32,796 nucleotides of DNA from an uncultured Lachnospiraceae bacterium (lineage in GTDB: Bacteria > Bacillota > Clostridia > Lachnospirales > Lachnospiraceae): NCBI GenBank assembly GCA_947589455.1, contig CANQCD010000009.1, forward strand, positions 1 to 32,796, in the 5' to 3' direction. Positions 3,981-32,489 of the stretch are shown here, piece after piece. Every line of letters starts with the position of its first letter. The stretch's first letter is position 1. A program made the translations under genes and the position numbers. A model generated the notes under the pieces. That model did no database searches. It had not been told where the DNA came from and saw only the letters and a list, made by a program, of their open reading frames with translations.

Positions 3981-4098
3981 TATAATTGTATCAAAATGAT
4001 TAACTTTTTCTGTTATTTAGGGACAAAATATTACAAAAATATTACAAAAAAAGAAAAAATTAATGAGAATCGGAAAAAAGAGGAGCGCGATATCAGAA

Positions 4099-4473
4099 AT
4101 GGAGAAAATATTACTATTTCAGTCAGAGTGGGAAGAGCAGCTTAAGCGGCTGGCAAGGTCAATGCGTATCTCTGCAGAGAGTGTTGCCGTGGAACATTTC
4201 AGGGAAAAACTTCAGTCGTTATACCGCGGGGAGACTGGGAAAGCGGAGCGATTTGAAGGCACGCCGCCAGAAGGGTCGCTGATTTTATTTTGCCAGGTAG
4301 AAGAGAAAAAGATGGATAAACTGTTGGCGGCAATGCGCAAAAAAGGACTGTCTGCCACATATAAGGCAGTTTTGACAAGGACAAATGCGCAGTGGAATGT
4401 CTTGCGGCTTTATTTTGAATTGGGACAGGAGAAGAAGCAGTTTGAAAATGGAAAGAGCCGGTTCGGCAAATAA
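4099..4473 (+). CDS. DUF3783 domain-containing protein
   Basis: ORF 4063-4473; the motif SLILFCQVEEKKMDKLLAAMRKKGLSATYKAVLTRTNAQWNVLRLYFEL recalls DUF3783. Start at 4099 (MEKILLF) or 4063. Confidence 0.7.
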   Translation: MEKILLFQSEWEEQLKRLARSMRISAESVAVEHFREKLQSLYRGETGKAERFEGTPPEGSLILFCQVEEKKMDKLLAAMRKKGLSATYKAVLTRTNAQWNVLRLYFELGQEKKQFENGKSRFGK

Positions 4474-4511: not shown

Positions 4512-4904
4512 CTAATCTCGCTTGAACGTGATGCCGGGGATCATGCTTTCCACTTCGTCCATATAATCACCGATTTCTTCTGCGTCGTCTTCCATTTCCT
4601 CTGTATCAAGGTCTTCAAAATACTGATTAAAGATTTGTGAGGCAATCTCAAATTCTTCTTCGTCTTCAATCGGCAAAAATTCAGGATCGCCGTTTTTGTA
4701 TTCCCGATATTCGAGTATCACTACTTCGCCTTCTTCAAAATCGCCATTCAGCGGCATGGCTGCGACATATTCCTTGCCAAGCTCTTCAATCTCGATTGCG
4801 ATAAAAACTTCCGCTTCGATATCATTCCCGTTCTCATCTGTCAGAGTAACGATGGTTGACGTTTCTTCATCATTAAAAATCATATCATGGTTTTTCTGGT
4901 TCAT
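4512..4904 (-). CDS. DUF1292 domain-containing acidic protein
   Basis: 130 aa acidic ORF with the DUF1292-like layout IVTLTDENGNDIEAEVFIAIEIEELGKEYVAAMP...EEEFEIASQIFNQYFED. Confidence 0.8.
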   Translation of the reverse strand: MNQKNHDMIFNDEETSTIVTLTDENGNDIEAEVFIAIEIEELGKEYVAAMPLNGDFEEGEVVILEYREYKNGDPEFLPIEDEEEFEIASQIFNQYFEDLDTEEMEDDAEEIGDYMDEVESMIPGITFKRD

Positions 4905-5092: not shown

Positions 5093-5158
5093 CAAATGCG
5101 GCATAGAATGTTTTCAATTATGGCCGGCGCATAGATGTTCCGGCGTAGAAAGGAGGGA

Positions 5159-5716
5159 ATGAAAATGAGCGGCATATCAGCAGTAGACGGTTCTTACAGT
5201 CAGGCGCTCCCTGTAAATCAGGTGCAGCGGCAGCAGGATCCGGAGGAGATGTCTCCGAAGGAGAGGAACCAGTTAGCTGTCGAGGAGAGTTTGAGCAAGA
5301 CAAATGAGGCGATGGCTGACAAGAAAGACACAGGGGAAGTAGATATGGGTTCCGGCGAGGGCCTGCAGACACTTCTGAAAATGCGTGAGATTACTTTTGA
5401 GTCAAGTGATTTTGCAGCACGTGCGAACCAGGATACCCGGTCAGCGCAGGAAGACGCGCTCCGCGAGATAGAGAAGGAACGCGAGCAGCAAAGGCTGCAC
5501 CTGGATCCGGAAGAGTTTGCCATTGGATATAATTCGCAGACGGCGTATAATATTGAAGAGGCAAATCAAAACGCCAATGCAGGAGACGACGATTCCCGTT
5601 TTGAGAGACAGGCGATGAACCTGGACAGGGAGAGGACGCTTGAGACATACCAGGGTATGGTTCAGAAACAGCAGAACGAGGAAGAGTACAGCAAACTGAC
5701 AATGTTTTATATGTAA
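5159..5716 (+). CDS. Uncharacterised small hydrophilic protein
   Basis: ORF 5135-5716; strong RBS AAAGGAGGG before ATG at 5159/5165 (MKMSGISAVDGSYSQ). Rich in Gln/Glu; no domain recognised. Confidence 0.75.
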   Translation: MKMSGISAVDGSYSQALPVNQVQRQQDPEEMSPKERNQLAVEESLSKTNEAMADKKDTGEVDMGSGEGLQTLLKMREITFESSDFAARANQDTRSAQEDALREIEKEREQQRLHLDPEEFAIGYNSQTAYNIEEANQNANAGDDDSRFERQAMNLDRERTLETYQGMVQKQQNEEEYSKLTMFYM

Positions 5717-5822: not shown

Positions 5823-6431
5823 GTGGATAAGATTATTACAATAGGCCGTCAGTATGGCAGTGGCGGTCGTGAGATCGGACAGAGGATTGCGGAAAAATAT
5901 AACATTCCGTTTTATGACAACGAGTTAATAACCCGCGCGGCAAAGGAAAGCGGTTTTGCTGAAGAGAGTTTTGAGCGGGCGGAGGACAGGGCTACGAACA
6001 GTTTACTGTATTCTCTTGCAATGGGGATCAATGTATATGGCAATCAGGATTTTGGATTTTCCGGACTGTCTTTGGACGACAGGATTTTTCTGGCGCAGTC
6101 AGATGTAATACGGAAAGTTGCAGAGGAAGGACCTTGCGTCATTGTGGGGAGATGTGCGGATTATGTCCTGAAAGAAAGGGACGACCTTGTGAATATCTTT
6201 GTGCGTGCCAGTATGTCCTACCGATTGCAGCGCGCAATCAATAACTATCACATTGACAGAAAAAAAGCGGCGGATTTTATATTGAAAAATGATAAAAGAA
6301 GGGGGAATTATTACAATTACCATGCAGGTGAAAAATGGATGAACCTGAATAATTATGATTTGGTGATCCGAAGTGATTTGATCGGGATTGAGAAATCTGT
6401 GGAATGCATCTGCATGTTTTTGGGGGAATGA
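5823..6431 (+). CDS. Cytidylate kinase-like family protein
   Basis: GTG start; IITIGRQYGSGGREIGQRIAEKYNIPFYDNELI is the P-loop region typical of Cytidylate_kin2/AAA_26-like kinases. Confidence 0.88.
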   Translation: MDKIITIGRQYGSGGREIGQRIAEKYNIPFYDNELITRAAKESGFAEESFERAEDRATNSLLYSLAMGINVYGNQDFGFSGLSLDDRIFLAQSDVIRKVAEEGPCVIVGRCADYVLKERDDLVNIFVRASMSYRLQRAINNYHIDRKKAADFILKNDKRRGNYYNYHAGEKWMNLNNYDLVIRSDLIGIEKSVECICMFLGE

Positions 6432-6461
6432 GGGGAGTTATTTTAGAAAGGAGAGATTACT

Positions 6462-7208
6462 ATGGAACCGGTATTAGATAATATCAGACAGGTAATCCGT
6501 GAGAATGATAATATTGTTTTGGTTGGGGGCAGCGAAATGATGCGCGAGACCGGCTTGAACGGATTCCGCGCAGAGCATATGGCGTATGAGATCGAAGAGG
6601 AATATGGATACTCGCCGGATGAAATTCTCTCCTCACTTTTTTTTACGCGACAGGCAGAAAAATTTTTTGACTATTATAAAAATATTATTTTAAATAAGAA
6701 GAATGTACAGCCGACGAAAGCTTTGAAAGCTGTTGCAGAGCTGGAAAAGGCGGGAAAACTGACTGCGATTGTCACCAGGACGGTATACCAGCTTTTTCAG
6801 AGGGCGGGCTGCCAGAGCACGATTGAACTGTACGGATCGGTGGAAGAGAATACCTGCCCGGTCTGCGGCAAGATGTTTGACAGCAAATATATAAAAAATG
6901 CGGACGGTATCCCAAAATGCGACAAATGCGGGATTCCGCTGCGCCCGGGATTTTCCCTGCTGGGGGAAATGCTTGATAATGGCCGGCTGACAAAAGCAGT
7001 GAATGCGATTGAGAATGCAAATGTTTTGATCGTGGCTGGCACGTCGCTTAATTCTTTGACCTGGGCAAGCACCTTGCGTTATTATGAAGGTGATAAGCTG
7101 ATTTTGATAAACACACAAAAGAAAAGTGGGGACGAAAAAGCAAATTATTGCGCATATGGAAATATTTCAGAAATATTTGAATATGTTATGGATTACAGTG
7201 AGGAATAA
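6462..7208 (+). CDS. Sir2-like protein with degenerate catalytic motifs
   Basis: 248 aa sirtuin-like layout: Zn ribbon CPVC...CDKC, ELYG in place of ELHG, TRTVYQLFQRAG in place of TQNIDGLHQKAG, VGGSEMMRETGLNGFR in place of GGAGVSTESGIPDFR. Confidence 0.8.
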   Translation: MEPVLDNIRQVIRENDNIVLVGGSEMMRETGLNGFRAEHMAYEIEEEYGYSPDEILSSLFFTRQAEKFFDYYKNIILNKKNVQPTKALKAVAELEKAGKLTAIVTRTVYQLFQRAGCQSTIELYGSVEENTCPVCGKMFDSKYIKNADGIPKCDKCGIPLRPGFSLLGEMLDNGRLTKAVNAIENANVLIVAGTSLNSLTWASTLRYYEGDKLILINTQKKSGDEKANYCAYGNISEIFEYVMDYSEE

Positions 7209-7220
7209 AGCAAGTAAACA

Positions 7221-7304
7221 GGGCAGCTGTTATAATCTTATTTTTGCATCCGCTGCAGATTGGGGGGATGGCCGATAACATTATAATAAGGCTGCCATTT
7301 TTTT
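7221..7304 (+). terminator. Putative intrinsic terminator downstream of the Sir2-like gene
   Basis: GGGCAGC...TTATAATC / CATTATAATAAGGCTGCC stem followed by ATTTTTTTAT. Confidence 0.65.
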
Positions 7305-7877
7305 ATACTGCGGCAGGAGGTGCGGCGGCGTCCACTCCGGGGAAAGGCACAAAAAGATGAGGTCAAACTGTTCCTGGAACACGCAGGCAAGCGAGGTGGA
7401 GGCAGCGTAGGGGAAATCTCCTTCCAGGCTTTGCGTCTCGCTGTCCGTGCGCCTGATCCAGATCACATTCTGTGTGCTGCAGGGGAAATGCCTGGCGAGA
7501 TGGCGCAGCCAGTTTGCACAAGTCAGAGTGTTGCCATACATACAGTAATTGTCGTGGTGAAAATCAATGTGGAACAGCCGGAACGTTTTTTCTGTCTCTG
7601 GAGAACAGTGCGACAGGATGAAAGGATAAATTTCTTTGTGGCTGTCTGCGGTGTGGGAGATGGCGCCTGGCTTTTGGAGCGAGGGGAGCGCTTCGCAGAA
7701 TGTGTCGTATGCGGGGATTGTGCCGATGCTTTGCAGCTGCGGATATTGCTGGTATGCTTTTTCCCAGAGTTTTTTCACAATCTGGGGATCGGCGTCTTCT
7801 GCATAGGGAAACATGGCGTCGCGCGTGCGGCTGTCAGTATCGATAAAATAGTCGAAGTCGATGCTTAAAATGTTCAT
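7281..7877 (-). CDS. UPF0489/arginase-fold-like family protein
   Basis: 198 aa ORF with ILSIDFDYF near the N-terminus and LFHIDFHHDNYCMYG, metal-site-like Asp/His motifs of UPF0489-type proteins. Confidence 0.6.
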   Translation of the reverse strand: MNILSIDFDYFIDTDSRTRDAMFPYAEDADPQIVKKLWEKAYQQYPQLQSIGTIPAYDTFCEALPSLQKPGAISHTADSHKEIYPFILSHCSPETEKTFRLFHIDFHHDNYCMYGNTLTCANWLRHLARHFPCSTQNVIWIRRTDSETQSLEGDFPYAASTSLACVFQEQFDLIFLCLSPEWTPPHLLPQYKKMAALL

Positions 7878-8056
7878 GGAATACCTCTCTTACTTTTGTT
7901 TTCCCGGCAATGGGGACTGTGTCTGCAATATAGTATAACATGGATCGGGAGGTTGGGCAAACACAGTGAAAACATAGTTTTGACGTAAAATTGCCATGCA
8001 TTTCGATGAAAATGTGTCATGATACGGCAGTGATATTTGGATATCAGATATTGCCT

Positions 8057-8490
8057 GGCAGCTGCCATGATAAAAGCGGAAAGAGAATGAATATGGTGAA
8101 TATGCCGCTGATTAGTATTCTGCGGCTGCCATGATAAAAGCAGAAAGAGAATGAATATGGCGAATATGCCGCTGATTAGTATTCTGGCGGCTGTCATGAT
8201 AAAAGCAGAAAGAAAAATGAATCATAGTGGTGAATATGCCGCTGATTAGTATTCTGGCGGCGGCTGTGATAAAAGCAGAAAGAAAATGAATATGGCGAAT
8301 ATGCCGTTGATTAGTATTCTGGCGGCGGCTGTGATAAAAGCAGAAAGAGAATGAATATGGTGAATATGCCGCTGATTAGTATTCTGCGGCGGCTGTGATA
8401 AAAGCAGAAAGAGAATGAATATGGCGAATATGCCGCTGATTAGTATTCTGGCGGCTGTTATGATAAAATCAGAAAGAGAATGAATAGTGA
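8057..8490. repeat. Tandem array of about 64-69 bp units, six full copies plus partial
   Basis: ATAAAAGCAGAAAGAGAATGAATATGGCGAATATGCCGCTGATTAGTATTCTGGCGGCTGT repeats; ATGAAT anchors at 8087, 8151, 8217, 8286, 8351, 8415 and 8480. Confidence 0.95.
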
Positions 8491-8514: not shown

Positions 8515-11022
8515 ATGAAGCGAAGACGAGATAGATGGATTGCCGGAATTACTGTAGCAGCAGTTATTTTTGCAGGAGCGGGCGCAGCCGTCCGGGCAGA
8601 TTCTAAGGCGCAGAGCCGTTCGGACTGGCATGGGAAGATGTTTCATAAGATACAGACAGGGCAGGAAAATGGACTTTCCCATTATACTGTTGTGGATGAG
8701 GATGGAAAAGAGCATCTTCCTGTCAATCTGCAGAAAGGATCTGCGAGAAAGCGTGCTGTGGAAGTTCCGTTTGCTTATGATTCAAGGGAGAAAGGGGTTG
8801 TCACTCCGATTAAAAACCAGGGGAGTACGGGGGCGTGTTGGGCTTTTTCCGCGGTGAAAGCGTTGGAGGCGGATGCGTTGACAAAGGGGATTGCCACAGA
8901 AGAGGACGCGGATTATTCGGAGAGCCATCTGGCATGGTATTCTTACAGCGCTTTGTCGGATGGTTCGGAATCGTTTCATGATAATAATATGGTTCTGGAC
9001 AGCGGAAGCGTCTATGATTATGGCGGGAATCCGGCTATGGCATCTTCTACGTTGGCAAATTGGTGGGGAGCTGCGGATGAGAGTGCAGCGCCGTACCGCG
9101 CGGAGACAGCGCGCGAGGTAGCCATGATGGAGCGGGAGATGGAAACGGCGGATGCAAGCCTTCGCACACAGGATTCTGTCCATATAAAAGAAGTAAATTG
9201 TTATGATGATGCAACGCGGGATGACGTCAAGCGAGCCGTGATGGAACATGGGGCGCTCAGTCTGTCTATGTATTATTCGAGGAGCAATCTATACGATACA
9301 GGAAGTACATATTCGATGTATCAGAGGACAGAGGGGACGAGAAGTTCAAACCATTGTGTGACGATCGTGGGATGGGATGATTCGTTTTCTGACTTTAAAA
9401 ACAGCCCACCGGAACCTGGTGCATGGCTGATAGCGAACAGTTACGGCGAGGATTATGGCGATAATGGATATTTTTGGCTGTCTTACTACGATACTTCGCT
9501 TTATGAATATTATTCTTTCGAGGCAGAACCGGCAGACACATATGAAAATAATTTCCAATATGACGCCAGCGGCTGGGGAGCGGGATATTATGATGAGGCG
9601 GATATCCAGGTTGCCAATGTTTTTACAAATGAAAAAGAAAGCGCGCAGTCGATCGAAGCAGTTGGACTGTACACATATAACGCCGGCCAGCGGTATGAAA
9701 TCTCAGTTTACCGCAATGTGGAGGGGATGCCGACAGAAGGCAGGCTTATATCAAAATGTACCACATCCGGCAGGGCTGATTATCCGGGGTATCACACAGT
9801 GGAGTTAGATGAGTCGGTTGCCGTGGCCAGTGGCGAGACGTTTTCTGTAGTGGTTACTTTTTTTGCTGATGGCGGGGAGGCCTATGCGCTTGTGGAAGGC
9901 TCTTCGGACAGTGAGATAGGGAAAATATATTATGCGCAGGCAGGGGAAAGTTTTATCTGTTTTGCGGACGAAGGGGAATGGTATGACACTGTGCTGGATG
10001 CGGAAGACCCGCAGAAATGCGCTAATAATGTATGCCTGAAAGCATTTACAAACTCTGTGAGTGATGAGGATTATCAAAAGCAGGAAGAAGTCGATCAGCC
10101 GACGCCGTTGGTTTCTGCCAGTGTGCAGCCGTCTGGAGGCGGGACAGAGACGCCGGGGAGCAGCGTGCAGCCGTCTGGAGGCGGGACAGAGACGCCGGGA
10201 GGAAGCGCACAGCCGTCCGGAGGCGGAACAGAGACGCCGGGAGGAAGCGCACAGCCGTCCGGAGGCGGGACAGAGACGCCGGGGAGCAGCGTACAGCCGT
10301 CCGGCGGTGGAACAGGGACGCCGGGAGGAAGCGCACAGCCGTCCGGAGACGGGACAGGGACGCCGGGAGGAAGCGCCTTGCCGTCTGGGAGCGGGACAGG
10401 GATTCCGGGAAGCACCGCCTCGCCGTCTGGAGGCGGGATAGGGACGCCGGGGAGCAGTGCACAGCCGTCCGGAGGCGGAAACGGAGCGCCGTCACAGTCT
10501 CCAGCCGCCACATCATCCAACAACGGGGAGAATGCGAAGACAAAAGTGACAAAAATCACTCCTGCAGCCAGGAAAATGATCCTGGGAAAGGGGGAGAGGG
10601 TCACAATTCCTGTGAAGGCTGCGCCGTCTTCTGCCAAAAAAGAGCTTCATTATCATTCTTCCAATAAGCGATGCGTTTCTGTCAGCGCAAAGGGAAAAAT
10701 AAAAGCGAAGGCAGTGGGCAAGGCAGTGATCGCAATATCGGCTGATTCCGGTGTGAAAAGCAAAGTGACAGTTATTGTCAAAAAAGCGCCATCTTTTGTC
10801 AGAGCAAAGAACATGAAGATAAAGAAGGGGAATGCAGCGAAAGTTACAGTAAATCTCGGTAAGAACAGGGCGAGTTACCAGATTCGCTTTACTTCCCTGC
10901 GGCCAAAGACTGCGTCGGTCAGCCAATCTGGAACGGTGAAAGCAAAGAAGCGCGGGACGGCAAAAATACGGATAACAGCCTTTAATGGAAAAAAATGTAC
11001 AGTGAAAATCAAGATAGTTTAG
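8515..11022 (+). CDS. Secreted papain-family (C1) cysteine protease with Ser/Pro/Gly repeat linker and C-terminal Ig-like (BIG2-type) repeats
   Basis: 835 aa; signal peptide-like N-terminus; NQGSTGACWAFSA (Cys), SNHCVTIVGWDD (His), WLIANSYGEDYGDNGYFWLSY (Asn); linker SxQPSGGGTETPGx; C-terminal VTKITPAARKMILGKGERVTIPVKAAP...KAVGKAVIAI. Confidence 0.92.
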   Translation: MKRRRDRWIAGITVAAVIFAGAGAAVRADSKAQSRSDWHGKMFHKIQTGQENGLSHYTVVDEDGKEHLPVNLQKGSARKRAVEVPFAYDSREKGVVTPIKNQGSTGACWAFSAVKALEADALTKGIATEEDADYSESHLAWYSYSALSDGSESFHDNNMVLDSGSVYDYGGNPAMASSTLANWWGAADESAAPYRAETAREVAMMEREMETADASLRTQDSVHIKEVNCYDDATRDDVKRAVMEHGALSLSMYYSRSNLYDTGSTYSMYQRTEGTRSSNHCVTIVGWDDSFSDFKNSPPEPGAWLIANSYGEDYGDNGYFWLSYYDTSLYEYYSFEAEPADTYENNFQYDASGWGAGYYDEADIQVANVFTNEKESAQSIEAVGLYTYNAGQRYEISVYRNVEGMPTEGRLISKCTTSGRADYPGYHTVELDESVAVASGETFSVVVTFFADGGEAYALVEGSSDSEIGKIYYAQAGESFICFADEGEWYDTVLDAEDPQKCANNVCLKAFTNSVSDEDYQKQEEVDQPTPLVSASVQPSGGGTETPGSSVQPSGGGTETPGGSAQPSGGGTETPGGSAQPSGGGTETPGSSVQPSGGGTGTPGGSAQPSGDGTGTPGGSALPSGSGTGIPGSTASPSGGGIGTPGSSAQPSGGGNGAPSQSPAATSSNNGENAKTKVTKITPAARKMILGKGERVTIPVKAAPSSAKKELHYHSSNKRCVSVSAKGKIKAKAVGKAVIAISADSGVKSKVTVIVKKAPSFVRAKNMKIKKGNAAKVTVNLGKNRASYQIRFTSLRPKTASVSQSGTVKAKKRGTAKIRITAFNGKKCTVKIKIV
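10120..10497 (+). repeat. In-frame 42-bp (14 aa) repeats SVQPSGGGTETPGS, about 9 copies
   Basis: Direct reading of the C1 protease translation and DNA. Confidence 0.95.
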
Positions 11023-12374: not shown

Positions 12375-12785
12375 TAGTATCTCTGCCAGAGGAGAAATTA
12401 TTCAACAAAAAACCGTCAGGATTTCCGCCAGAGGAGAGATTATTCGAAAAAAGCCGCCAGGATTTCCGCCAGAAGAGGGATGATTCGACAAAAAGCCGTC
12501 AGTATTTCCGCCAGAAGAGGGATGATTCAACAAAAAACCGTCAGTATTTCCGCCAGAAGAGGGATGATTCGACAAAAGCCGTCAGTATCTCTGCAAGGGA
12601 AGAGATGATTCAACAAAAAACCGTCAGTATTTCCGCCAGAAGAGGGATGATTCGACAAAAAGCCGTCAGTATTTCCGTCAGAAGAGGGATGATTCGACAA
12701 AAGCCGTCAGTATCTCTGCAAGGGAAGAGATAATTCAACAAAAAACCGTCAGGATTTCTGCCAGAAGAGAGATAATTCAACAAAA
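12375..12785. repeat. Tandem 41-42 bp repeat, about 10 copies
   Basis: Units of (T/G)ATTTCCGCCAGAAGAGGGATGATTCGACAAAAAGCCGTCAG from the permease start region to the terminator at 12790. Confidence 0.95.
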
Positions 12786-12811
12786 AAACCGAGGTTGCGT
12801 TAGCAACCTCG
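12781..12811 (-). terminator. Intrinsic terminator, minus-strand orientation
   Basis: CGAGGTTGC-GTTA-GCAACCTCG perfect 9-bp stem (12790-12811); A7 on the plus strand to the left gives a U-tract on the minus strand. Confidence 0.85.
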
Positions 12812-17129: not shown

Positions 17130-19574
17130 ATGGAAGAAAATAACCAGGAAACAAATAACAATCAGATGGCAAGCGAAGGACAGTCAGTGAATGGAAGCCA
17201 GATGGTAAACGAAGGGCAGCCAGTGAATGGAAGCCAGCAGGCAGATGAAGGGCAGCCAGTGAATGGAAGCCAGATGGCAAGCGAAGGGCAGCCAGTGAAC
17301 GGAAGCCAGATGGTAAACGAAGGACAGTCAGTGAACGGAAGCCAGATGGTAAACGAAGGACAGTCGGTGAACGGAAGCCAGCAGGCAAGCGAAGGGCAGA
17401 CAGTGAACGGAAGCCAGATGGTAAACGAAGGGCAGCCAGTGAACGGAAGCCAGCAGGCAAACGAAGGGCAGACGGTGAACGGAAGCCAACAGGCAAGCGA
17501 AGGGCAGACAGTGAACGGAAGCCAGCAGGTAAACGAAGGACAGTTAGTGAATGGAAGCCAGATGGCAAGCGAGAGTCAGGCGGCGAATAGCAGTTGGGAG
17601 GCAAAGCAAACAGAATATACCGGTGAATACGGAAATGCTGTTGCCGGTGAGTACAGGCATCCGGATTCTTCCGTGTACAGCTATTCCTATAAAAATGGAA
17701 ATGGAGAGAGTACCCATTCGGGAGACTATTACGCAGACAGGGATTCTGCCGGTCAGGGCGACGCTGAAATGAGAGGCGCATATTACGGCGCACCGGGAAG
17801 CAGCAATGAAAGCGGCTATCAAAATAGCGGCAGTTCGGGAAACAGTAGCGGAAGCGGCTATCAAAATAGCGGCAGTTCGGGAAATAGTAGCGGAAGCGGT
17901 TATCAAAACAGCGGCAGTTCGGGGAATTATAGCGGAAGCGGCTATCAGAATGGCGGCGGTCTGGGAAACGGTTATCAGAACGGCGGCAGTTCGGGAAACT
18001 ACGGCGGGTATCACGCAGGCTACACATCAGACAATGCCAATAGCGGGAAGATGAAAAAGCAGAAAAAGGAAAACAGCGCATGGAACCGCTGGGGCAAAAA
18101 AGCGGTTGCCTGTGCAGTCTGTTCTTTTGCATTTGGTCTTTTGGGGGCATTTGCATTCCATACTGCAGATGGTCTGGTTAATCGGGAAAAGGCAGAGATC
18201 CAGACGCAGGAAAACGATACTGTGCTGCAAGACGACAGTGCAGCGGATGTTACGGCGTCGCCGGATTCTGTGGACAGCGCAGGGAACAGCTCTGATATCA
18301 CAGCGATCGCAGAGCAGTGTATGCCAGCCGTTGTAGCGATTACCAGCACGACCGAGGGAACGGACTACTATGATTTATTTGGGAGATATTATCAGGGAGA
18401 AGATACGGACAGCAGCGGGACAGGTTTTGTTGTCGGCCAGAACGAGAAGGAGCTTCTGATCGCAACGAATAATCATGTGATTTCCGGGGCAAAGACGATT
18501 TCCGTACAGTTTATTGACGGCGAAATCTATGAGGCGGCAGAGAAAGGCTCTGATACGGCGAACGATCTTGCCGTAGTTGCTGTGGATGTGTCAAAAGTAA
18601 AAAAAGCGACAATGGAGAAGATAAAGATTGCCGACATGGGCAATTCCGACAAGGCAAAAGTAGGCGAGCGCGTGATTGCCATCGGCAATGCGCTGGGCTA
18701 TGGGCAGTCTGTCACAGTAGGTTATATCAGCGCAAAGGATCGGGAGATCACAGAGTCATCGCAGGACGGAAGTACACAGAATACGATCAAGGCAATCCAG
18801 ACAGACGCCGCGATCAATCCGGGCAACAGCGGCGGCGCACTGATCAACATGCAGGGGCAGGTGATAGGGATTAACTCTGCCAAAATAGCAGATTCTGCGG
18901 TAGAAGGGGTAGGATATGCCATCCCAATCTCTGTGGCAACGCCAATCATTGACGAGCTGATGAACCGTGAGATATTAAAGGATTCAGAGAAGGGTTATCT
19001 GGGAATCAGCGGCAGTACCGTTTCACAGGAGGCGTCTGCGTATAATCTGCCATACGGCGTATATGTCAAGGAAGTTTCTAAGGGCGGCGCGGCAGACAAA
19101 GCAGGCATCAAGGTAAACGATGTCATTACTGCGGTAAATAAAATGGAAGTCACTACGATAGAGAGCCTGCAGGAAAAAGTAAACAGTTACCGGAAGGGCA
19201 CGGAGGTTGAAATAACACTAAAGAGGAGCACAGACGGCGTATACAAGGAACAGAAAGTAAAAGTAACGCTGCAGGGCAGCAGTTCTTTGGATGGATTGTC
19301 CGAGGGCACTGTGCCGGGCAACGGTGAAAATGGAAACGGGGATAACGGAAACAATGGAAACGGCGGAAACGGAGATAACGGAAGCAATGGAAACGGCGGG
19401 AACAACGGCGGGAACGGAAGCAACGGAAACGGTGGAGACAACGGCGGAAACGGAAGCAACGGAAACGGCGGAAACAACGGCGGGAACGGAAGCAATGGAA
19501 ACGGAAGTGATGGAAACAACAACCCAGGAGAGGGATATGACGATTTCTGGGGAGACTTTTTCGGATTTAACTAA
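17130..19574 (+). CDS. HtrA/DegP-like S1C serine protease with PDZ domain and three low-complexity repeat blocks
   Basis: 814 aa; TM KAVACAVCSFAFGLLGAFAF; catalytic NNHVISGA (His), ANDLAVVAVD (Asp), NPGNSGGALINMQGQVIGIN (Ser); PDZ region GVYVKEVSKGGAADKAGIKVNDVI. Confidence 0.95.
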   Translation: MEENNQETNNNQMASEGQSVNGSQMVNEGQPVNGSQQADEGQPVNGSQMASEGQPVNGSQMVNEGQSVNGSQMVNEGQSVNGSQQASEGQTVNGSQMVNEGQPVNGSQQANEGQTVNGSQQASEGQTVNGSQQVNEGQLVNGSQMASESQAANSSWEAKQTEYTGEYGNAVAGEYRHPDSSVYSYSYKNGNGESTHSGDYYADRDSAGQGDAEMRGAYYGAPGSSNESGYQNSGSSGNSSGSGYQNSGSSGNSSGSGYQNSGSSGNYSGSGYQNGGGLGNGYQNGGSSGNYGGYHAGYTSDNANSGKMKKQKKENSAWNRWGKKAVACAVCSFAFGLLGAFAFHTADGLVNREKAEIQTQENDTVLQDDSAADVTASPDSVDSAGNSSDITAIAEQCMPAVVAITSTTEGTDYYDLFGRYYQGEDTDSSGTGFVVGQNEKELLIATNNHVISGAKTISVQFIDGEIYEAAEKGSDTANDLAVVAVDVSKVKKATMEKIKIADMGNSDKAKVGERVIAIGNALGYGQSVTVGYISAKDREITESSQDGSTQNTIKAIQTDAAINPGNSGGALINMQGQVIGINSAKIADSAVEGVGYAIPISVATPIIDELMNREILKDSEKGYLGISGSTVSQEASAYNLPYGVYVKEVSKGGAADKAGIKVNDVITAVNKMEVTTIESLQEKVNSYRKGTEVEITLKRSTDGVYKEQKVKVTLQGSSSLDGLSEGTVPGNGENGNGDNGNNGNGGNGDNGSNGNGGNNGGNGSNGNGGDNGGNGSNGNGGNNGGNGSNGNGSDGNNNPGEGYDDFWGDFFGFN
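17166..17597 (+). repeat. In-frame 36-bp (12 aa) repeats MVNEGQPVNGSQ, about 12 copies
   Basis: Direct reading of the HtrA N-terminal region. Confidence 0.95.
17810..18010 (+). repeat. In-frame repeats SGYQNSGSSGNSSG (about 42 bp)
   Basis: Direct reading of the HtrA translation and DNA (GGCTATCAAAATAGCGGCAGTTCGGGAAA). Confidence 0.9.
19318..19530 (+). repeat. In-frame Gly/Asn-rich repeats (NGGNNGGNGSNG)
   Basis: Direct reading of the HtrA C-terminal extension. Confidence 0.92.
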
Positions 19575-21552: not shown

Positions 21553-22269
21553 TTATAAATCTTCAAATACTTCGCCCAGCCCTGCCTGGATCAACAGGTC
21601 GGCATTGCTGTCATAAGGGGTCGGCGATTTATTGATCAGCGCCAGATGGTTTCCCTGATAGTACTGCAGCATACCGGCGGCAGGATAGACGGACAGAGAA
21701 GTTCCGCCGACGATCATCAGGTCTGCATGGGAGATGGCGCTGATTGCGCCGCTGATCACCGTCTCGTCAAGCCCTTCCTCATAGAGGACAACATCCGGTT
21801 TGATAATGCCGCCGCAGTGGCACTGCGGCACTCCGGTGCTGTTTATGATTTCTTCAACCGGATAAAAAGTATGACAGCGGGTACAGTAATTCCGGTGGAT
21901 AGATCCGTGGAGCTCAAATACTTTCTTGCTACCCGCCTTCTGATGCAGGCCGTCAATATTCTGTGTGACGATTCCTTCCAGTTTCCCCTCTTCTTCCCAT
22001 TGGGCAAGCTTTTTGTGGGTAATATTTGGAAGGGCGTCCAAATAGATCATCTTGTCCCGGTAAAAGTCAAAAAATTCCTCTGTCTTTCTTTGAAAAAAAG
22101 TATGGCTTAATATGGTTTCCGGGGGATAGTCATATTTCTGGTGGTATAACCCGTCTACACTGCGAAAGTCCGGGATGCCGCTCTCTGTGCTGACTCCGGC
22201 GCCGCCAAAAAATACGATATGACGGCTGTTTTCTATCAGTTCTTTTAGCTGTCTGACTTTTTCTGGCAT
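21553..22269 (-). CDS. NAD-dependent protein deacylase (canonical Sir2 family)
   Basis: VFFGGAGVSTESGIPDFRS, VTQNIDGLHQKAG, FELHGSIHRNYCTRC, VGGTSLSVYPAAG all canonical. Confidence 0.96.
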   Translation of the reverse strand: MPEKVRQLKELIENSRHIVFFGGAGVSTESGIPDFRSVDGLYHQKYDYPPETILSHTFFQRKTEEFFDFYRDKMIYLDALPNITHKKLAQWEEEGKLEGIVTQNIDGLHQKAGSKKVFELHGSIHRNYCTRCHTFYPVEEIINSTGVPQCHCGGIIKPDVVLYEEGLDETVISGAISAISHADLMIVGGTSLSVYPAAGMLQYYQGNHLALINKSPTPYDSNADLLIQAGLGEVFEDL

Positions 22270-22532: not shown

Positions 22533-25500
22533 ATGAATAAAAAATACTATTTGGGACTAGACATAGGGACAGCGTCCATTGGCTGGGCGGTGACAGATGA
22601 CAAGTATGAAATTGTGAAAAGGCATGGCAAAGCGCTATGGGGAATAAGGCTCTTTGAGACAGCAAACACAGCAGAAGAGCGCCGACTCTTCCGCACGGGA
22701 AGGCGTCGGACAGATCGGAGAAAGAACCGCATTGCATTGTTGCAAGAACTCTTTGCAGAAGAAATAGGAAAGAAGGATCCAGGCTTCTTCCTCCGTTTAA
22801 AAGAAAGTAAGTATTATCCAGAAGACAAACGAGACATGCAGGGCAATGTGCCAGAACTTCCCTATGCGCTTTTTGTGGATGCTGGTTTTACGGATAAAGA
22901 TTTTCACAAAGATTTTCCAACGATATATCATCTGAGATATCAACTTATCCATGGAATGAATGAAAAACCGGATATCCGTCTGTTATATTTGGCGCTGCAT
23001 CATATTATAAAACATCGAGGACATTTTCTTTTTGAAGGGAGCAAGATGTCTGATGTAACAAACTTTTCCAACGCATACCGCGCTCTTTGTGAGTGTGCGT
23101 TGGAACAAGGGATTGAGCTTCCTGAGGATATACAGATTGTAAACGATCTTGAAAAGATTATGAAGTCCCGTGATATAAATCGAACGGACAAAAAGAAAGA
23201 GATTGCAGCGCTCATTGTAAGCCGCGATGCAGACAAGGGGACGGCAGGACGTTTAAAAGCTATGGCGGGACTGATGGCTGGATGTTCTGTAAAATTGAGT
23301 GAGCTGTTTGCAGATGATTCCCTGGCTGAGGAAGAGAAGAATAAGATTAGTTTTGCCGACAGCAGTTATGAGGATTATGCCGCACAGGTAGAAACAGCGC
23401 TGGCAGATCGATTCCTGTTAATTACCGCAGCGAAAGCAATCTATGATTGGGCAGTTTTGAGTGATATCCTGCAATCATCAGAATTTTTGTCAGAGGCGAA
23501 GAAGAAATCCTATGACAAACATAAAAAAGATTTGCGCAAGCTGAAGGATCTGCTCTGCAAGGATCGTAACGTGTATAGAAAAATGTTCGGCGTACCGGAA
23601 AAACAGAATAACTATAGCGCATATATTGGCATGGTCAAAAAGAACGGAAAAAAGATGCCGATAGAGAAAAATTGCAGTAAAGAGGATTTTTATACCTTTT
23701 TGAAAAATACATTATCTGCGCTGCCATGCGATGGAGAAGATATGCAGATACGAGATGGCATTCTTGAAGAAATCGCGCTTGGCGTCTTTCTGCCGAAGCA
23801 GACGATCCGGGATAATGGAGTGATTCCCTATCAGCTTCATGAAAAAGAATTGAATGCAATCCTGAAAAATGCAGAGACATTCTATCCATTTCTCACGGAG
23901 AAAGATGCACAGGGACGCACAGTCAGCGATAAAGTGCGGGCGATTTTCCGATTCCGCATCCCTTACTACGTAGGACCGCTGAATACCTATCACAGCGAAC
24001 TTGGAGGAAATAGTTGGGCAATCCGCCACAAAGGAGCGGAAGGGAAAATTTATCCGTGGAATTTTGAGGAGATGATTGACGACGAGAGCAGCGCAGAACA
24101 GTTTATATACCGTATGACCAATAAATGTACTTATTTGCTTGGTGAAGATGTACTTCCCAGGGAATCTCTGCTCTATGCGAAATTTATGGTGCTAAATGAG
24201 TTGAATAATCTCCGTATCGATGGCGAGCCTGTATCGGTGGAAATTAAACAACAAATCTATGAAGGCGTATTTCAAAAACATCGCAATGTGACAGGAGTAC
24301 GTGTGAAAGATTTTCTCGTGCGCGAGGGAATCATTGGAAAAGAGCAGGAACTCTCTGGTTTTGATAAAAATTTTAAAAGTTCGCTAAAGGCGTATCATGA
24401 TATTCGTCAGATTGCCGGACAAATAGCGCTCTCGGAGAATGAATGGGAAGATATTATTAAGGATATTACGCTTTTTGGGGATTCACAGTCTATGTTGCGC
24501 CGTCGCTTGCAGCGCAAATATCCGGTGCTAAGTGAACGTCAGATAAAACAGCTTGCAGCAAAGAAATATAGCGGATGGGGCAGACTCTCTCGTGTATTTT
24601 TGGAACGCATGGAATCCGTCAATACAGAAACTGGTGAAATGCTAAATATTATATCGGCGCTTTGGGAGACGAATAACAATCTCATGCAGCTTTTGAGCAA
24701 GGAATGGCAATTTACAGCACAGATTGAGGAACACAATGCAGCAGTTACGTCCGAGGGAGACACAAGCTATCAGACAGTGGAAGATCTCTATGTATCTCCT
24801 GCAGTCAAACGACCGATTTGGCAAACACTAAAAATTGTACGGGAGATCAAGCATATTATGGGATGCCCGCCGGCACGAATCTTCATTGAGGTGGCACGTG
24901 AGCCGGGAAAGAAAGGTCAGCGGAAAGTGTCAAGGAAGTCTTCTTTGTGCGACTTATACCAGATATGCAAGAAAGAGGAATCGGAACTTTGGGAGAGTTT
25001 ACAAAACTGCGATGAGAACGATTTGCGCAGCGATAAGCTCTATCTGTATTATACACAATTTGGCAAATGTATGTATTCAGGAGAGACGATCGATCTTGGG
25101 GATTTGTTTACCAACCGTTATGATATTGACCACATCTATCCTCAATCGAAGGTGATGGATGACAGTATTGACAATCGCGTACTTGTAAAGCGGGATTTGA
25201 ATGCAAACAAGTCGGATGTCTTTCCGGTACCAAAAGAATATATGGAGAAAGCAAAATGGTTGTGGGATTCTCTGCTGCAAAAAAAGCTGATCTCTAAAGA
25301 AAAATATCATCGTCTGACCAGGCGGGATGATTTTGGTGAAAATGAACTTGCAGGATTTATCGCCAGACAATTAGTTGAGACAAGGCAGAGTACAAAAGCA
25401 GTTGCACAACTATTGGGAAATGAATATCCAGACACAGAAATTGTCTATGCCAAGGCACAGGCGGTGAGTGAGTTTCGCCATAAATTTCATTTGATCAAAG

Positions 25501-26600
25501 TGCGTGAGATCAATGATTATCACCATGCCAAGGATGCCTATCTCAATATTGTGGTGGGCAATACCTATTATGTGAAATTTACGAAGGATGCGGCGTGGTA
25601 TGTGCGGAACAATCCGGGGCGTTCCTATAATTTGCAAAAAATGTTTGAGAAAGGCACAGTGGAGCGTGGCGGCGAGATTGCGTGGACGGGCGGAGAAAAT
25701 GGCACCATACGTATTGTCAAGCGGTGGATGGGCAAAAATAATATTCTCTTTACAAGACGGTCTTACGAAGCAAAGGGAGAATTGTTCAAGCGGCAAATTG
25801 TTAAGAAAGGGAAGGGGCAAATCCCTATTAAGAGCGAGGAACGTCTCGCAGATATTGATAAGTATGGTGGATATAACAAGGCGAGCAGCGCTTACTTTAT
25901 GTTAGTAGAATCTAAGGGAAAGAAAGGGAAGCTGATGCGTACCATCGAAGTTGTGCCAGTGTATCTTGCCAAAAAACTGGAAGATTCCCCAGAGGCGATG
26001 GCGCAATATTGCAAAGAGGATCTGAAATTGACAGAGGCGAGAATCCTCTTGCCAAAGATTAAGACTGACACACTATTCTGCATAGATGGATTTTTCATGC
26101 ATTTATCGGGACGGTCGGGAGGGAAAAGAAGGCAGTTATTAGTTAAGGGAGCTAATCAGCTTGTGGTATCTGAGGAGATACAGGGGATACTTAAAAAAGT
26201 AACAAAATATTGTGCCGACTATAAGGTCAACAAAAACGCAACTATTTCAGACAAGGCGGAGCTTATGGAAGAGCAGCTTATAGCGGTATATGATGAGTTT
26301 CAGCATAAGCTAAGCGACACGGTGTATGGCAGGAGATTAAGTGCACAGCTTGACACGCTTGAAAAAGGGAAGGCGGCGTTTCTGAAGCTTTCCAAAGAGG
26401 AGAAGTGCCTGACAATCGGAGAGATACTCCATTTGTTCCAATGCCGGAGCACGTCAGCAAATTTATCTGCGATCAAGGGATCGCCTAGTGCAGGTGTGCT
26501 GGTGTTAAACAAAGATATTACTAAGTTAGAAAATATAGTGATAATCAACCAATCCATTACTGGATTTTATGAGCAGGTAATTGCTCTAAAGGACTTATGA
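22533..26600 (+). CDS. cas9: CRISPR-associated endonuclease Cas9 (type II)
   Basis: 1355 aa; RuvC-I YYLGLDIGTASIGWAV (Asp10), Arg-rich RTGRRRTDRRKNR, RuvC-II IFIEVARE, HNH YDIDHIYPQSKVMDDSIDNRVLV, RuvC-III HHAKDAYLNIVVGN. Confidence 0.98.
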   Translation: MNKKYYLGLDIGTASIGWAVTDDKYEIVKRHGKALWGIRLFETANTAEERRLFRTGRRRTDRRKNRIALLQELFAEEIGKKDPGFFLRLKESKYYPEDKRDMQGNVPELPYALFVDAGFTDKDFHKDFPTIYHLRYQLIHGMNEKPDIRLLYLALHHIIKHRGHFLFEGSKMSDVTNFSNAYRALCECALEQGIELPEDIQIVNDLEKIMKSRDINRTDKKKEIAALIVSRDADKGTAGRLKAMAGLMAGCSVKLSELFADDSLAEEEKNKISFADSSYEDYAAQVETALADRFLLITAAKAIYDWAVLSDILQSSEFLSEAKKKSYDKHKKDLRKLKDLLCKDRNVYRKMFGVPEKQNNYSAYIGMVKKNGKKMPIEKNCSKEDFYTFLKNTLSALPCDGEDMQIRDGILEEIALGVFLPKQTIRDNGVIPYQLHEKELNAILKNAETFYPFLTEKDAQGRTVSDKVRAIFRFRIPYYVGPLNTYHSELGGNSWAIRHKGAEGKIYPWNFEEMIDDESSAEQFIYRMTNKCTYLLGEDVLPRESLLYAKFMVLNELNNLRIDGEPVSVEIKQQIYEGVFQKHRNVTGVRVKDFLVREGIIGKEQELSGFDKNFKSSLKAYHDIRQIAGQIALSENEWEDIIKDITLFGDSQSMLRRRLQRKYPVLSERQIKQLAAKKYSGWGRLSRVFLERMESVNTETGEMLNIISALWETNNNLMQLLSKEWQFTAQIEEHNAAVTSEGDTSYQTVEDLYVSPAVKRPIWQTLKIVREIKHIMGCPPARIFIEVAREPGKKGQRKVSRKSSLCDLYQICKKEESELWESLQNCDENDLRSDKLYLYYTQFGKCMYSGETIDLGDLFTNRYDIDHIYPQSKVMDDSIDNRVLVKRDLNANKSDVFPVPKEYMEKAKWLWDSLLQKKLISKEKYHRLTRRDDFGENELAGFIARQLVETRQSTKAVAQLLGNEYPDTEIVYAKAQAVSEFRHKFHLIKVREINDYHHAKDAYLNIVVGNTYYVKFTKDAAWYVRNNPGRSYNLQKMFEKGTVERGGEIAWTGGENGTIRIVKRWMGKNNILFTRRSYEAKGELFKRQIVKKGKGQIPIKSEERLADIDKYGGYNKASSAYFMLVESKGKKGKLMRTIEVVPVYLAKKLEDSPEAMAQYCKEDLKLTEARILLPKIKTDTLFCIDGFFMHLSGRSGGKRRQLLVKGANQLVVSEEIQGILKKVTKYCADYKVNKNATISDKAELMEEQLIAVYDEFQHKLSDTVYGRRLSAQLDTLEKGKAAFLKLSKEEKCLTIGEILHLFQCRSTSANLSAIKGSPSAGVLVLNKDITKLENIVIINQSITGFYEQVIALKDL

Positions 26601-27478
26601 GCTGGAGGGTGGTTGTGATCCATAATACGGCAAAGCTGGATTTGCAACTCAATTATCTGGTAGTCCGTGGGGAGATGAATACAACAAAGATCCATATCTC
26701 AGAAATCAGCGTTCTTCTCGTGGAGTCGACGTCCGTCTCGCTGACGGCAGGACTGCTTGCAGAGTTGAGTCGCCAAAAAGTGAAAGTTGTGTTTTGTGAT
26801 GAGAAGCGTAATCCCTCCTCAGAGCTGCTATCGTATTATGGAGCGCATGATACGAGCAATAAGATACGCACGCAGATTCGATGGCAGCCATCGGACAAGG
26901 AGGCAGTATGGACAGAGATTGTTCGTGAGAAAATACGTCAGCAGGCAGAACTGCTGGCAGAAAGGGAAAAGAAGCAAGAAGCAGAGCTGTTAAATACATA
27001 TGTGCACGATATCCGTTGGAATGATGAAACGAATCGAGAAGGACATGCGGCAAAAGTATACTTTAACGCATTATTTGGCATGGATTTTTCCCGAAGTCAG
27101 GACAATTACATCAATGCAGCTCTCAATTACGGATATGCCATTTTGCTTTCCGCATTCAATCGAGAAGTTGTAGCCAATGGCTATATTACACAATTAGGTT
27201 TGTTTCATGACAATATATTCAATCCTTTCAATTTGAGCTCGGATTTGATGGAGCCATTCCGTGTGTTGGTCGACAGGAAAGTATGTGCCATGTGTCTGAC
27301 AGATTTTCAGCATCCGGAGAAGATGGAGCTCGTGGATCTTTTGAACAAAGAGGTCATTATGGAGGGGAAGCATTATGTGGCGCTCAATGCCATAAAGCGT
27401 TATGTTAAAAGTGTTTTTGATGCGTTGAATGATTCGGATATATCTTTGCTGACTTTTTGCACGTCATATGAGTTATAG
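26597..27478 (+). CDS. cas1: CRISPR-associated endonuclease Cas1 (type II)
   Basis: 293 aa; MSWRVVVIHNTAKLDLQLNYLVV and HDNIFNPFNLSSDLMEPFR as in type II Cas1; 4-bp ATGA overlap with cas9. Confidence 0.97.
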   Translation: MSWRVVVIHNTAKLDLQLNYLVVRGEMNTTKIHISEISVLLVESTSVSLTAGLLAELSRQKVKVVFCDEKRNPSSELLSYYGAHDTSNKIRTQIRWQPSDKEAVWTEIVREKIRQQAELLAEREKKQEAELLNTYVHDIRWNDETNREGHAAKVYFNALFGMDFSRSQDNYINAALNYGYAILLSAFNREVVANGYITQLGLFHDNIFNPFNLSSDLMEPFRVLVDRKVCAMCLTDFQHPEKMELVDLLNKEVIMEGKHYVALNAIKRYVKSVFDALNDSDISLLTFCTSYEL

Positions 27479-27788
27479 ATTTATGAGAGTATTGGTATTG
27501 TTTGACCTTCCTGTGCTTACTTCGGCACAGCGAAGAGAATATACGCGTTTTCGAAAATATTTAATCAAAAGCGGATTCGTAATGCAGCAGGAGTCTGTTT
27601 ATAGTAAGCTGGCGCTTAATATGACAGTGGCGCAGCGAATTGCAGACAATGTGCGGAAAAATGCGCCACCAGAAGGACTGGTGCAAATGCTTACTATCAC
27701 AGAGAAACAATACAATCGTATGGAATTTTTGGTTGGAGAGAGCAAAAGCGATGTATTGCAGTCGGACGAGAGGATGATCATATTATGA
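27468..27788 (+). CDS. cas2: CRISPR-associated endoribonuclease Cas2
   Basis: 106 aa; YRFMRVLVLFDLPVLTSAQRREYTRFRKYLIKSGFVMQQESVYSKL; 11-bp overlap with cas1. Confidence 0.97.
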   Translation: MSYRFMRVLVLFDLPVLTSAQRREYTRFRKYLIKSGFVMQQESVYSKLALNMTVAQRIADNVRKNAPPEGLVQMLTITEKQYNRMEFLVGESKSDVLQSDERMIIL

Positions 27789-28456
27789 AATTAGTACATA
27801 AGGAGCTTCCTTTTCAGATTTTATTCGAGGAGGAATTTGTTCCGGTTTGCCTGATTGAGTCTCCAGTATGGTGGCGCATTTTGCAAAGAGAGATATATAC
27901 GCAAGTGCAAGGTGGTGAAGGAAGGTGGGTGCTCTCGGAAGAAGAAAAAGAATTGAAATTATCCAAGGCAGCACATCTGATTTTGAGTCCTATCTATTTA
28001 GATGAAAATCAAAAAAGTCTTTGGAATGGCGTCACGCGATTGATCGGTACAAAGGTCATGGATGAGGCTCATTGGAAAGACTGGCAGGAAATCAATGCAT
28101 TGCTCCATCGTTTTTTTGCAGAATTGGAGACAGAATTTTTATTTTCTTATTATTTGGATGGAGAAATTGACGTCCCTGCATTGGCAAAATCGTTGGGGCT
28201 TCGAATAGAAACAGATTTCAAAAGCGATTTGGAGAGGCTTTTGGCATACTGTATTTTAGTAAAGGAAGTTTTGGGAATCAAATTGTTTATTTTTGTGCAA
28301 TTGCATGATTATTTTACAGAGAAGGAATTAACGTTATTGTATGAGGAAATACAGACAAGAAAGTGGAATGCTCTTCTTTTGGAAACACATGTCGAACAAC
28401 GTGTGTTGGGTGAAAAATATTATATTATTGATAAAGACGGCTGTGGAATCTATTGA
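27785..28456 (+). CDS. csn2: Type II-A CRISPR-associated protein Csn2
   Basis: 223 aa; position after cas2 with 4-bp overlap; C-terminal EQRVLGEKYYIIDKDGCGIY as in Csn2 proteins. Confidence 0.9.
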   Translation: MKLVHKELPFQILFEEEFVPVCLIESPVWWRILQREIYTQVQGGEGRWVLSEEEKELKLSKAAHLILSPIYLDENQKSLWNGVTRLIGTKVMDEAHWKDWQEINALLHRFFAELETEFLFSYYLDGEIDVPALAKSLGLRIETDFKSDLERLLAYCILVKEVLGIKLFIFVQLHDYFTEKELTLLYEEIQTRKWNALLLETHVEQRVLGEKYYIIDKDGCGIY

Positions 28457-28481
28457 ATTTTGGCTGAAAACATGGTATATT
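28453..28481 (+). promoter_or_regulatory. Putative pre-crRNA (leader) promoter
   Basis: TTGAAT (28453-28458), 17 bp, TATATT (28476-28481); overlaps the csn2 stop and lies about 80 bp before the first repeat. Confidence 0.55.
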
Positions 28482-28562
28482 TAGGAAGTGTTCTTAGTAA
28501 AGTTTGAGTACATGCTTCATACAAATTATGCGAATTGATGGCATTTCATTTTCTATTTTGAG

Positions 28563-31500: not shown

Positions 31501-32489
31501 TGAAGTCATAAAAGAGGAGGAAGACAGTGGTTTGAGAATGATGTAGATTTGTATGGCACTCAAACACCAGGCAACACAATATGTTGATGTGAATGGTTTG
31601 AGAATGATGTAGATTTGTATGGCACTCAAACACAACCCAAAAATAAACCAAAACCACACCAGTTTGAGAATGATGTAGATTTGTATGGCACTCAAACAAA
31701 TCCCCTAGCGTTTCTTGATTCAAGACGGTTTGAGAATGATGTAGATTTGTATGGCACTCAAACCTTAAATGACGCATATTCTCCATCATGTTTGTTTGAG
31801 AATGATGTAGATTTGTATGGCACTCAAACTATTTTTCTGTTGTAGTAGGCAATCTTCTCGTTTGAGAATGATGTAGATTTGTATGGCACTCAAACACGGT
31901 CGGACATATCCTGTATTATTCCCTAGTTTGAGAATGATGTAGATTTGTATGGCACTCAAACAGATCCGTGTATTCCTTGCTGGTAAAATGGTTTGAGAAT
32001 GATGTAGATTTGTATGGCACTCAAACTGTTTCTTCCGGGTTATTAACCGTCGTTTGTTTGAGAATGATGTAGATTTGTATGGCACTCAAACGAAAATTTA
32101 ACAATCCATTGGCAGTGTTAAGTTTGAGAATGATGTAGATTTGTATGGCACTCAAACATTGAGCTTCTCGAATCCCATCTACTCTTCGTTTGAGAATGAT
32201 GTAGATTTGTATGGCACTCAAACACTATCTCACGAATATAAAAGAGCAGTCCTGTTTGAGAATGATGTAGATTTGTATGGCACTCAAACTTGTATTGATT
32301 ATTGGCGAATCAGGTACCGGTTTGAGAATGATGTAGATTTGTATGGCACTCAAACATTATATCTCATGCCGTCTCACTCCTTTCCGTTTGAGAATGATGT
32401 AGATTTGTATGGCACTCAAACCTGCCCGATCCGCTTTTATACTGTTCCGGGAGGTTTGAGAATGATGTAGATTTGTATGGTACTCAAGC
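28563..32489 (+). CRISPR. Type II-A CRISPR array, 60 repeats and 59 spacers by manual count
   Basis: 36-bp repeat GTTTGAGAATGATGTAGATTTGTATGGCACTCAAAC; spacers mostly 30 bp (29-32). Only the last copy (32454-32489, ...TATGGTACTCAAGC) diverges, which puts the leader at the csn2 side. Confidence 0.99.

Follow-up and report, generated by a model that had tools for sequence, protein, structure and literature searches.

The window (the whole 32,796-nucleotide stretch of DNA that was analysed) carries two sirtuin genes, which encode the only sirtuins in the whole genome assembly. One is a canonical CobB-type sirtuin. The other, at 6462-7208 on the plus strand, is a divergent paralogue, here called the pseudo-sirtuin, that shares 35% identity with the canonical copy. 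The pseudo-sirtuin ORF starts with ATG, is intact and begins 30 bp past the stop of a kinase-like gene. The features of the locus and the comparison copy are as follows.

5823..6431, plus strand: cytidylate-kinase-like gene (PF13189), directly 5' of the pseudo-sirtuin gene and co-oriented with it (Pfam).
6447..6453, plus strand: AAAGGAG, ribosome-binding-site-like, 5' of the ATG (read from the sequence).
6462..7208, plus strand: pseudo-sirtuin ORF, 248 aa, a Sir2-fold paralogue without the NAD+ pocket (sequence, AF2 model, Foldseek).
6525..6569, plus strand: codons 22-36, GGSEMMRETGLNGFR replacing canonical GGAGVSTESGIPDFR, NAD-binding loop (alignment).
6594..6596, plus strand: Glu45 codon, invariant in 64 aligned family members and unconserved in canonical sirtuins.
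6774..6809, plus strand: codons 105-116, TRTVYQLFQRAG replacing TQNIDGLHQKAG; the canonical Gln, Asn and Asp are gone and the family consensus is TR..[YF].
6825..6836, plus strand: codons 122-125, ELYG, with Tyr124 (6831-6833) in place of the catalytic His (alignment).
6855..6929, plus strand: Zn ribbon, Cys132 to Cys156 (CPVC...CDKC), invariant across the family (alignment).
21553..22269, minus strand: canonical CobB-type sirtuin, the comparison copy, with the full set of canonical motifs (Pfam, NCBIfam).

The pseudo-sirtuin matches the Pfam SIR2 domain (PF02146, E = 1.7e-26; 93.7 bits against a cut-off of 24) and scores below the cut-off for every NCBIfam NAD-deacylase model scored. For NF001752 (NAD-dependent protein deacylase) it reaches 173.8 bits against a cut-off of 221, and the CobB of the window reaches 337.7. 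The pocket residues of canonical deacylases (GAGxS, PDFR, QNxD and the catalytic His) are all absent, and the zinc cysteines C132, C135, C153 and C156 are all retained. The following details had been read from the letters by the first-pass annotation, and each of them was confirmed: the changes of GGAGVSTESGIPDFR to GGSEMMRETGLNGFR at residues 22-36, of TQNIDGLHQKAG to TRTVYQLFQRAG at 105-116 and of ELHG to ELYG at 122-125, the four cysteines, and an intact ORF about 30 bp downstream of a kinase gene.

Elsewhere in the window, a 65-bp tandem repeat (8055-8486; 6.6 copies, 90% matches) lies in intergenic DNA immediately 5' of a gene that has internal 42-bp repeats and whose secreted product is a papain-like C1 protease carrying lectin-like and Big_2 domains (8515-11022). 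About 10 copies of a 42-bp tandem repeat (12376-12787) separate a gene for an AI-2E-family transporter from the genes that follow, and a 107-bp tandem repeat (1793-2043; 2.3 copies) covers the 3' end of argJ so that the last argJ codons are duplicated past the stop. The ORF at 17130-19574 encodes a trypsin-like serine protease (HtrA-like by eye) with a long N-terminal series of 12-aa repeats that derive from a 36-bp tandem repeat. A Type II-A CRISPR-Cas locus occupies 22533-32423 and includes Cas9 (1355 aa), Cas1, a Cas2-sized ORF, Csn2 and an array of about 58 repeat-spacer units with the repeat GTTTGAGAATGATGTAGATTTGTATGGCACTCAAAC. An Rfam scan of the window returned no family at its cut-off.

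A structure prediction, one of the checks proposed in the first-pass annotation, gives a Sir2 fold. The AF2 model (m5c41d9249b3d, from six input sequences) has a mean pLDDT of 88.7 and a pTM of 0.85, and a canonical control built on those six inputs has a pLDDT of 88.8. When the model is searched against the PDB with Foldseek, the matches are Sir2 enzymes (E about 1e-21, TM about 0.8), including TmSir2 H116Y (2h4h). Homology and the predicted model both show the paralogue keeping the whole Sir2 fold. Low pLDDT at the NAD loop was considered as a sign of a broken pocket and rejected, since the uncertainty there is just as great in the canonical control (blocks at 60 against 64-67).

Across 200 searched genomes from the GTDB family of the window, many genera contain relatives that share these altered motifs. 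A paralogue profile was built from 26 relatives and applied at a strict cut-off of E 1e-83 (about 281 bits). At this level the paralogue is present in 71 of 397 genomes and 56 of 334 genera of the one GTDB family (Lachnospiraceae-like, a label taken from its single named member, L035, Hominisplanchenecus murintestinalis), and these counts are a lower bound because the divergent paralogue of genome G010 fell under the cut-off. Members beyond the family are therefore possible. Within the genus of the window, 27 of 28 genomes carry the paralogue, mostly alongside a canonical copy. The order (146 genomes) and the phylum (349 genomes) yield no match above the strict level from outside the same family, and the best match from another family scores 271 bits.

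The paralogues separate cleanly from canonical sirtuins. When 64 paralogues and 67 canonical sirtuins are scored with two profiles there is no overlap, the differences being at least +91 for one set and at most -102 for the other. A family tree, also proposed at first pass, places the window gene in a distinct paralogue set: in a maximum likelihood tree of 100 rows, paralogues and canonicals each occupy one side of a branch (SH-aLRT 100%; quick search, sirtuins from one phylum, midpoint rooted, no bootstrap). As judged from these sequences, the window gene belongs to a paralogous subfamily that is distinct from the canonical CobB of the same genome. The subfamily is probably ancient and lineage specific, and it was detected here in one family of gut-type bacteria only.

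What the paralogues have lost and what they have kept differ sharply. Every one of the 67 canonicals has A24, D34, F35, Q103, N104, D106, H109 and H121. In the paralogues the first seven of these positions are mostly replaced, and H121, the catalytic His, is retained in 71%. Conservation was compared over 16 NAD-contact columns, a list drawn from established knowledge of Sir2 structures. Mean entropy at these columns is 0.02 bits in the canonicals, compared with 1.21 for random columns. Across 52 diverse paralogues it is 1.89 bits, compared with 1.76 for random columns, and 71% of random sets lie at or below the observed value. The cofactor site of the paralogue family, taken as a whole, shows no detectable constraint, and the loss of NAD-binding residues is ancestral to the whole subfamily. 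The first-pass annotation had described a homologue that lost the catalytic His and the NAD-binding residues; the second part stands and extends to the entire subfamily, while the change from His to Tyr proves to be secondary and belongs to one clade of the genus.

The zinc cysteines have an entropy of 0.0 and are invariant in the 64 aligned members. The substrate-strand GE is also strongly kept (Gly168 100%, Glu169 95%), and the family has acquired invariant or nearly invariant residues of its own: Glu45 (100%), Gly49, Asn173, Arg161 and Cys117 (89%). Pocket positions that are conserved within the family include Gly23, Gly193, Arg106 (78%, with Lys in 6%), Tyr/Phe109 (94%, with Phe in 23% of paralogues) and Asn217 (70%). 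Together with the catalytic His that persists in 71%, these residues make a weak or different ligand-binding role for the pocket possible. NG86 dN/dS values for close paralogue pairs are 0.03-0.11, in the same range as those of canonicals (0.04-0.11); the pair formed by the window copy and L033 has saturated dS and was left out. Thus, the paralogue is under purifying selection. A pseudoenzyme or a protein of changed chemistry, which the first-pass annotation had preferred to a decayed gene, is favoured by the occurrence in many genera, the purifying selection, the invariant Zn ribbon and the unconstrained NAD pocket.

By parsimony, the catalytic His has been lost at least 5 times in the paralogues and 0 times in the canonicals, and a further Tyr form occurs in L212. 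Relatives of the window protein have HG, LG or RG at this position and the window copy has YG. Among 27 aligned members of the genus, 14 have Tyr (one clade, 97%) and 13 have His, and the Tyr form reflects a single later event common to the 14 species. Nine positions (24, 124, 176, 194, 200, 201, 203, 206 and 238) differ cleanly between the Tyr clade and the His clade, and six of the nine fall within the old pocket (hypergeometric p = 0.001; leaving out position 124 gives 0.005; the pocket set was chosen after the alignment had been viewed). Ser24 and Trp201 accompany Tyr124 in 14 of 14 sequences. Re-packing of the pocket thus seems to have gone along with losing the His. Either packing or a new ligand site could account for the change, and the evidence favours packing because conservation at the lost contact positions does not exceed that of random columns inside either clade.

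The paralogue is followed by gltX (glutamyl-tRNA synthetase), with a UvrD-like helicase gene next in line, all on the same strand, in 24 of 40 loci and 17 of 27 genera. Six of the 24 gltX-linked loci overlap slightly, and excluding these leaves 18 loci in 11 genera. The gaps between the paralogue and gltX ORFs range from -14 to +120 in most cases and are near zero in many, and the paralogue of L212 is likewise beside the gltX-helicase pair. In genomes that lack the paralogue, the pair is mostly without any sirtuin, which suggests that the sirtuin is an added gene. The idea that the gltX link goes back to a canonical sirtuin that stood there ancestrally was considered and dropped, as the gltX-side sirtuin of G010, canonical-looking by score, is a paralogue. 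In the other 16 loci gltX is not 3' of the paralogue, and in the species of the window it is found elsewhere, on contig 48; the link has been lost in this lineage. The PF13189 kinase gene lies 5' of the paralogue at each of the 13 loci checked in the genus and also in the window (14 of 14), and it is not linked to the paralogue in the loci examined outside the genus. The kinase is a probable operon partner within the genus. A connection with glutamyl-tRNA synthetase, or with the 5' kinase, is suggested by gene order only.

Taken together, the findings are best explained, with reasonable though not high confidence, by an ancient pseudo-deacylase with the Sir2 fold and structural zinc intact, which would neither bind NAD+ nor deacylate as sirtuins do and is selected as a binding or regulatory protein. 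The old cofactor pocket may have been partly refilled by side chains, which in the window copy would be Ser24, Arg106, Tyr109, Tyr124 and Trp201. A protein or peptide partner would dock in the inter-domain cleft, given that the best conserved parts of the family (the Zn ribbon, the Glu45 helical module and the GExxDN loop) frame this cleft in sirtuins. The GExxDN loop is the site where canonical sirtuins grip the acylated peptide. A more specific form of this explanation, compatible with it, is that the protein is a regulatory subunit of its operon that binds GltX or the 5' kinase and tunes how active or how stable that enzyme is, the sirtuin fold serving as the docking platform. The frequent gltX-helicase arrangement, with ORFs that often overlap or nearly do so, the appearance of the sirtuin as an added gene and the constant kinase in the genus all argue for such a subunit. 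However, the gene order may simply be inherited from an ancestor, the loci without gltX include that of the window, and the kinase link is confined to the genus, so that this form is possible at a fairly low probability.

Changed chemistry is the main rival. The pocket would have been rebuilt and not given up, so that it now binds or turns over some different ligand, for instance an anionic nucleotide or an acyl compound held through Arg106, the aromatic at position 109 and Glu45. These three are novel, family-specific residues, and Arg107 is invariant (15 of 15) in one subfamily. A precedent is SirTM, a sirtuin class that lacks the His and whose pocket was rebuilt for a different activity, ADP-ribosylation (PMC4518038). 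The concentration of clade-switching positions in the pocket also agrees with this reading, although the pocket set behind that statistic was picked with the alignment in view. However, the 12 lost contact positions do not exceed random conservation even inside single clades, residue 109 is Phe in 23% of members, His is replaced variously by Tyr, Leu or Arg, and Arg106 is the sole conserved polar replacement in the pocket, which makes changed chemistry unlikely. Rather unlikely as well is a combined form in which the pocket, refashioned to take a ligand that is not NAD+ (Arg106, the aromatic 109 and Glu45, with clade versions such as Ser24/Tyr124/Trp201), makes the protein a ligand-responsive regulator of glutamyl-tRNA synthetase or the neighbouring kinase. 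A role in which the pseudo-sirtuin pairs with the canonical CobB of its own cell, or antagonises it as a dominant negative, is suggested by the presence of a canonical sirtuin, intact or contig-split, in 66 of 71 paralogue genomes. Bacterial CobB is as a rule a monomer, and four genomes have the paralogue without a detected canonical sirtuin: G104 (3 contigs, 96% complete), G105, G147 and G164. In the single-contig genome G085, the canonical sirtuin is apparently broken (C1:3088044-3088400, covering query residues 20-139 only, with one in-frame stop) and the pseudo-sirtuin is intact. These five genomes suggest that the paralogue has its own role and does not require CobB, and they weaken an obligate partnership, leaving this role very unlikely. 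Finally, the missing catalytic and cofactor residues could mark a duplicate heading for loss. This is barely credible given the intact ORFs across the family, the low dN/dS, the near-universal presence in the genus and the invariant Zn cysteines and Glu45. The narrower idea raised at first pass, that this copy alone is eroding, was rejected on the family-wide distribution of the change, the presence of the gene across the genus and dN/dS.

The pseudo-deacylase explanation has consequences for annotation and for the study of the sirtuin fold. Because the paralogues pass the Pfam SIR2 cut-off despite an unconstrained NAD site, automatic annotation likely labels them NAD-dependent deacetylases. 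The genus of the window offers a natural test of an NAD-free sirtuin fold, as half of its members have the His and half have the textbook dead Tyr in a common background. If the paralogue does bind acyl-lysine or GltX, the sirtuin fold would be tied to translation in gut bacteria. A search of the open-access literature, with subscription journals outside its scope, found no bacterial pseudo-sirtuin family and no divergent Bacillota sirtuin.

Comparison with known sirtuins places the protein near three reference points. With CobB (PF02146; NF001752) it shares the fold, the length, the Zn ribbon and the Glu of the substrate strand, but it lacks GAGxS, PDFR, QNxD and the His. The laboratory mutants TmSir2 H116Y (PDB 2h4h) and SIRT1 H363Y have, at the same position, the substitution that is natural here and shared by 14 species. 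However, the mutants keep all other NAD residues (2h4h is an NAD complex) and the window protein does not. The class M sirtuins (SirTM) are macrodomain-linked, have Gln for the catalytic His (QG for HG), keep the NAD site and have another activity (PMC4518038). The macrodomain gene is adjacent to the SirTM gene, extended operons include GcvH-L and LplA2, and Asn118 is conserved in SpySirTM (PMC4518038). Like SirTM, the window protein belongs to a sirtuin-fold clade without the catalytic His; SirTM has no deacylase activity and none would be expected of the window protein. Unlike the QG of SirTM, the motif is YG in the window protein and HG, LG or RG in its relatives, and the equivalent of Asn118 is Thr107, with Met, Arg, Ser or Asn across the paralogue family. 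No macrodomain gene was identified beside the pseudo-sirtuin in the window or among the commonest neighbours elsewhere, which are gltX, the helicase, the kinase and ThrE. The window genes at 4063-4470, 4512-4904 and 5823-6431 have Pfam domains other than the macrodomain, and the ORFs at 5135-5716 and 7281-7877 have zero Pfam matches. Membership in SirTM was rejected on the motif and the neighbours. Loss of the NAD site, a variable residue at the His position and, among the neighbours scanned, no macrodomain gene set the pseudo-sirtuin family apart from SirTM, the known class of sirtuins without the catalytic His.
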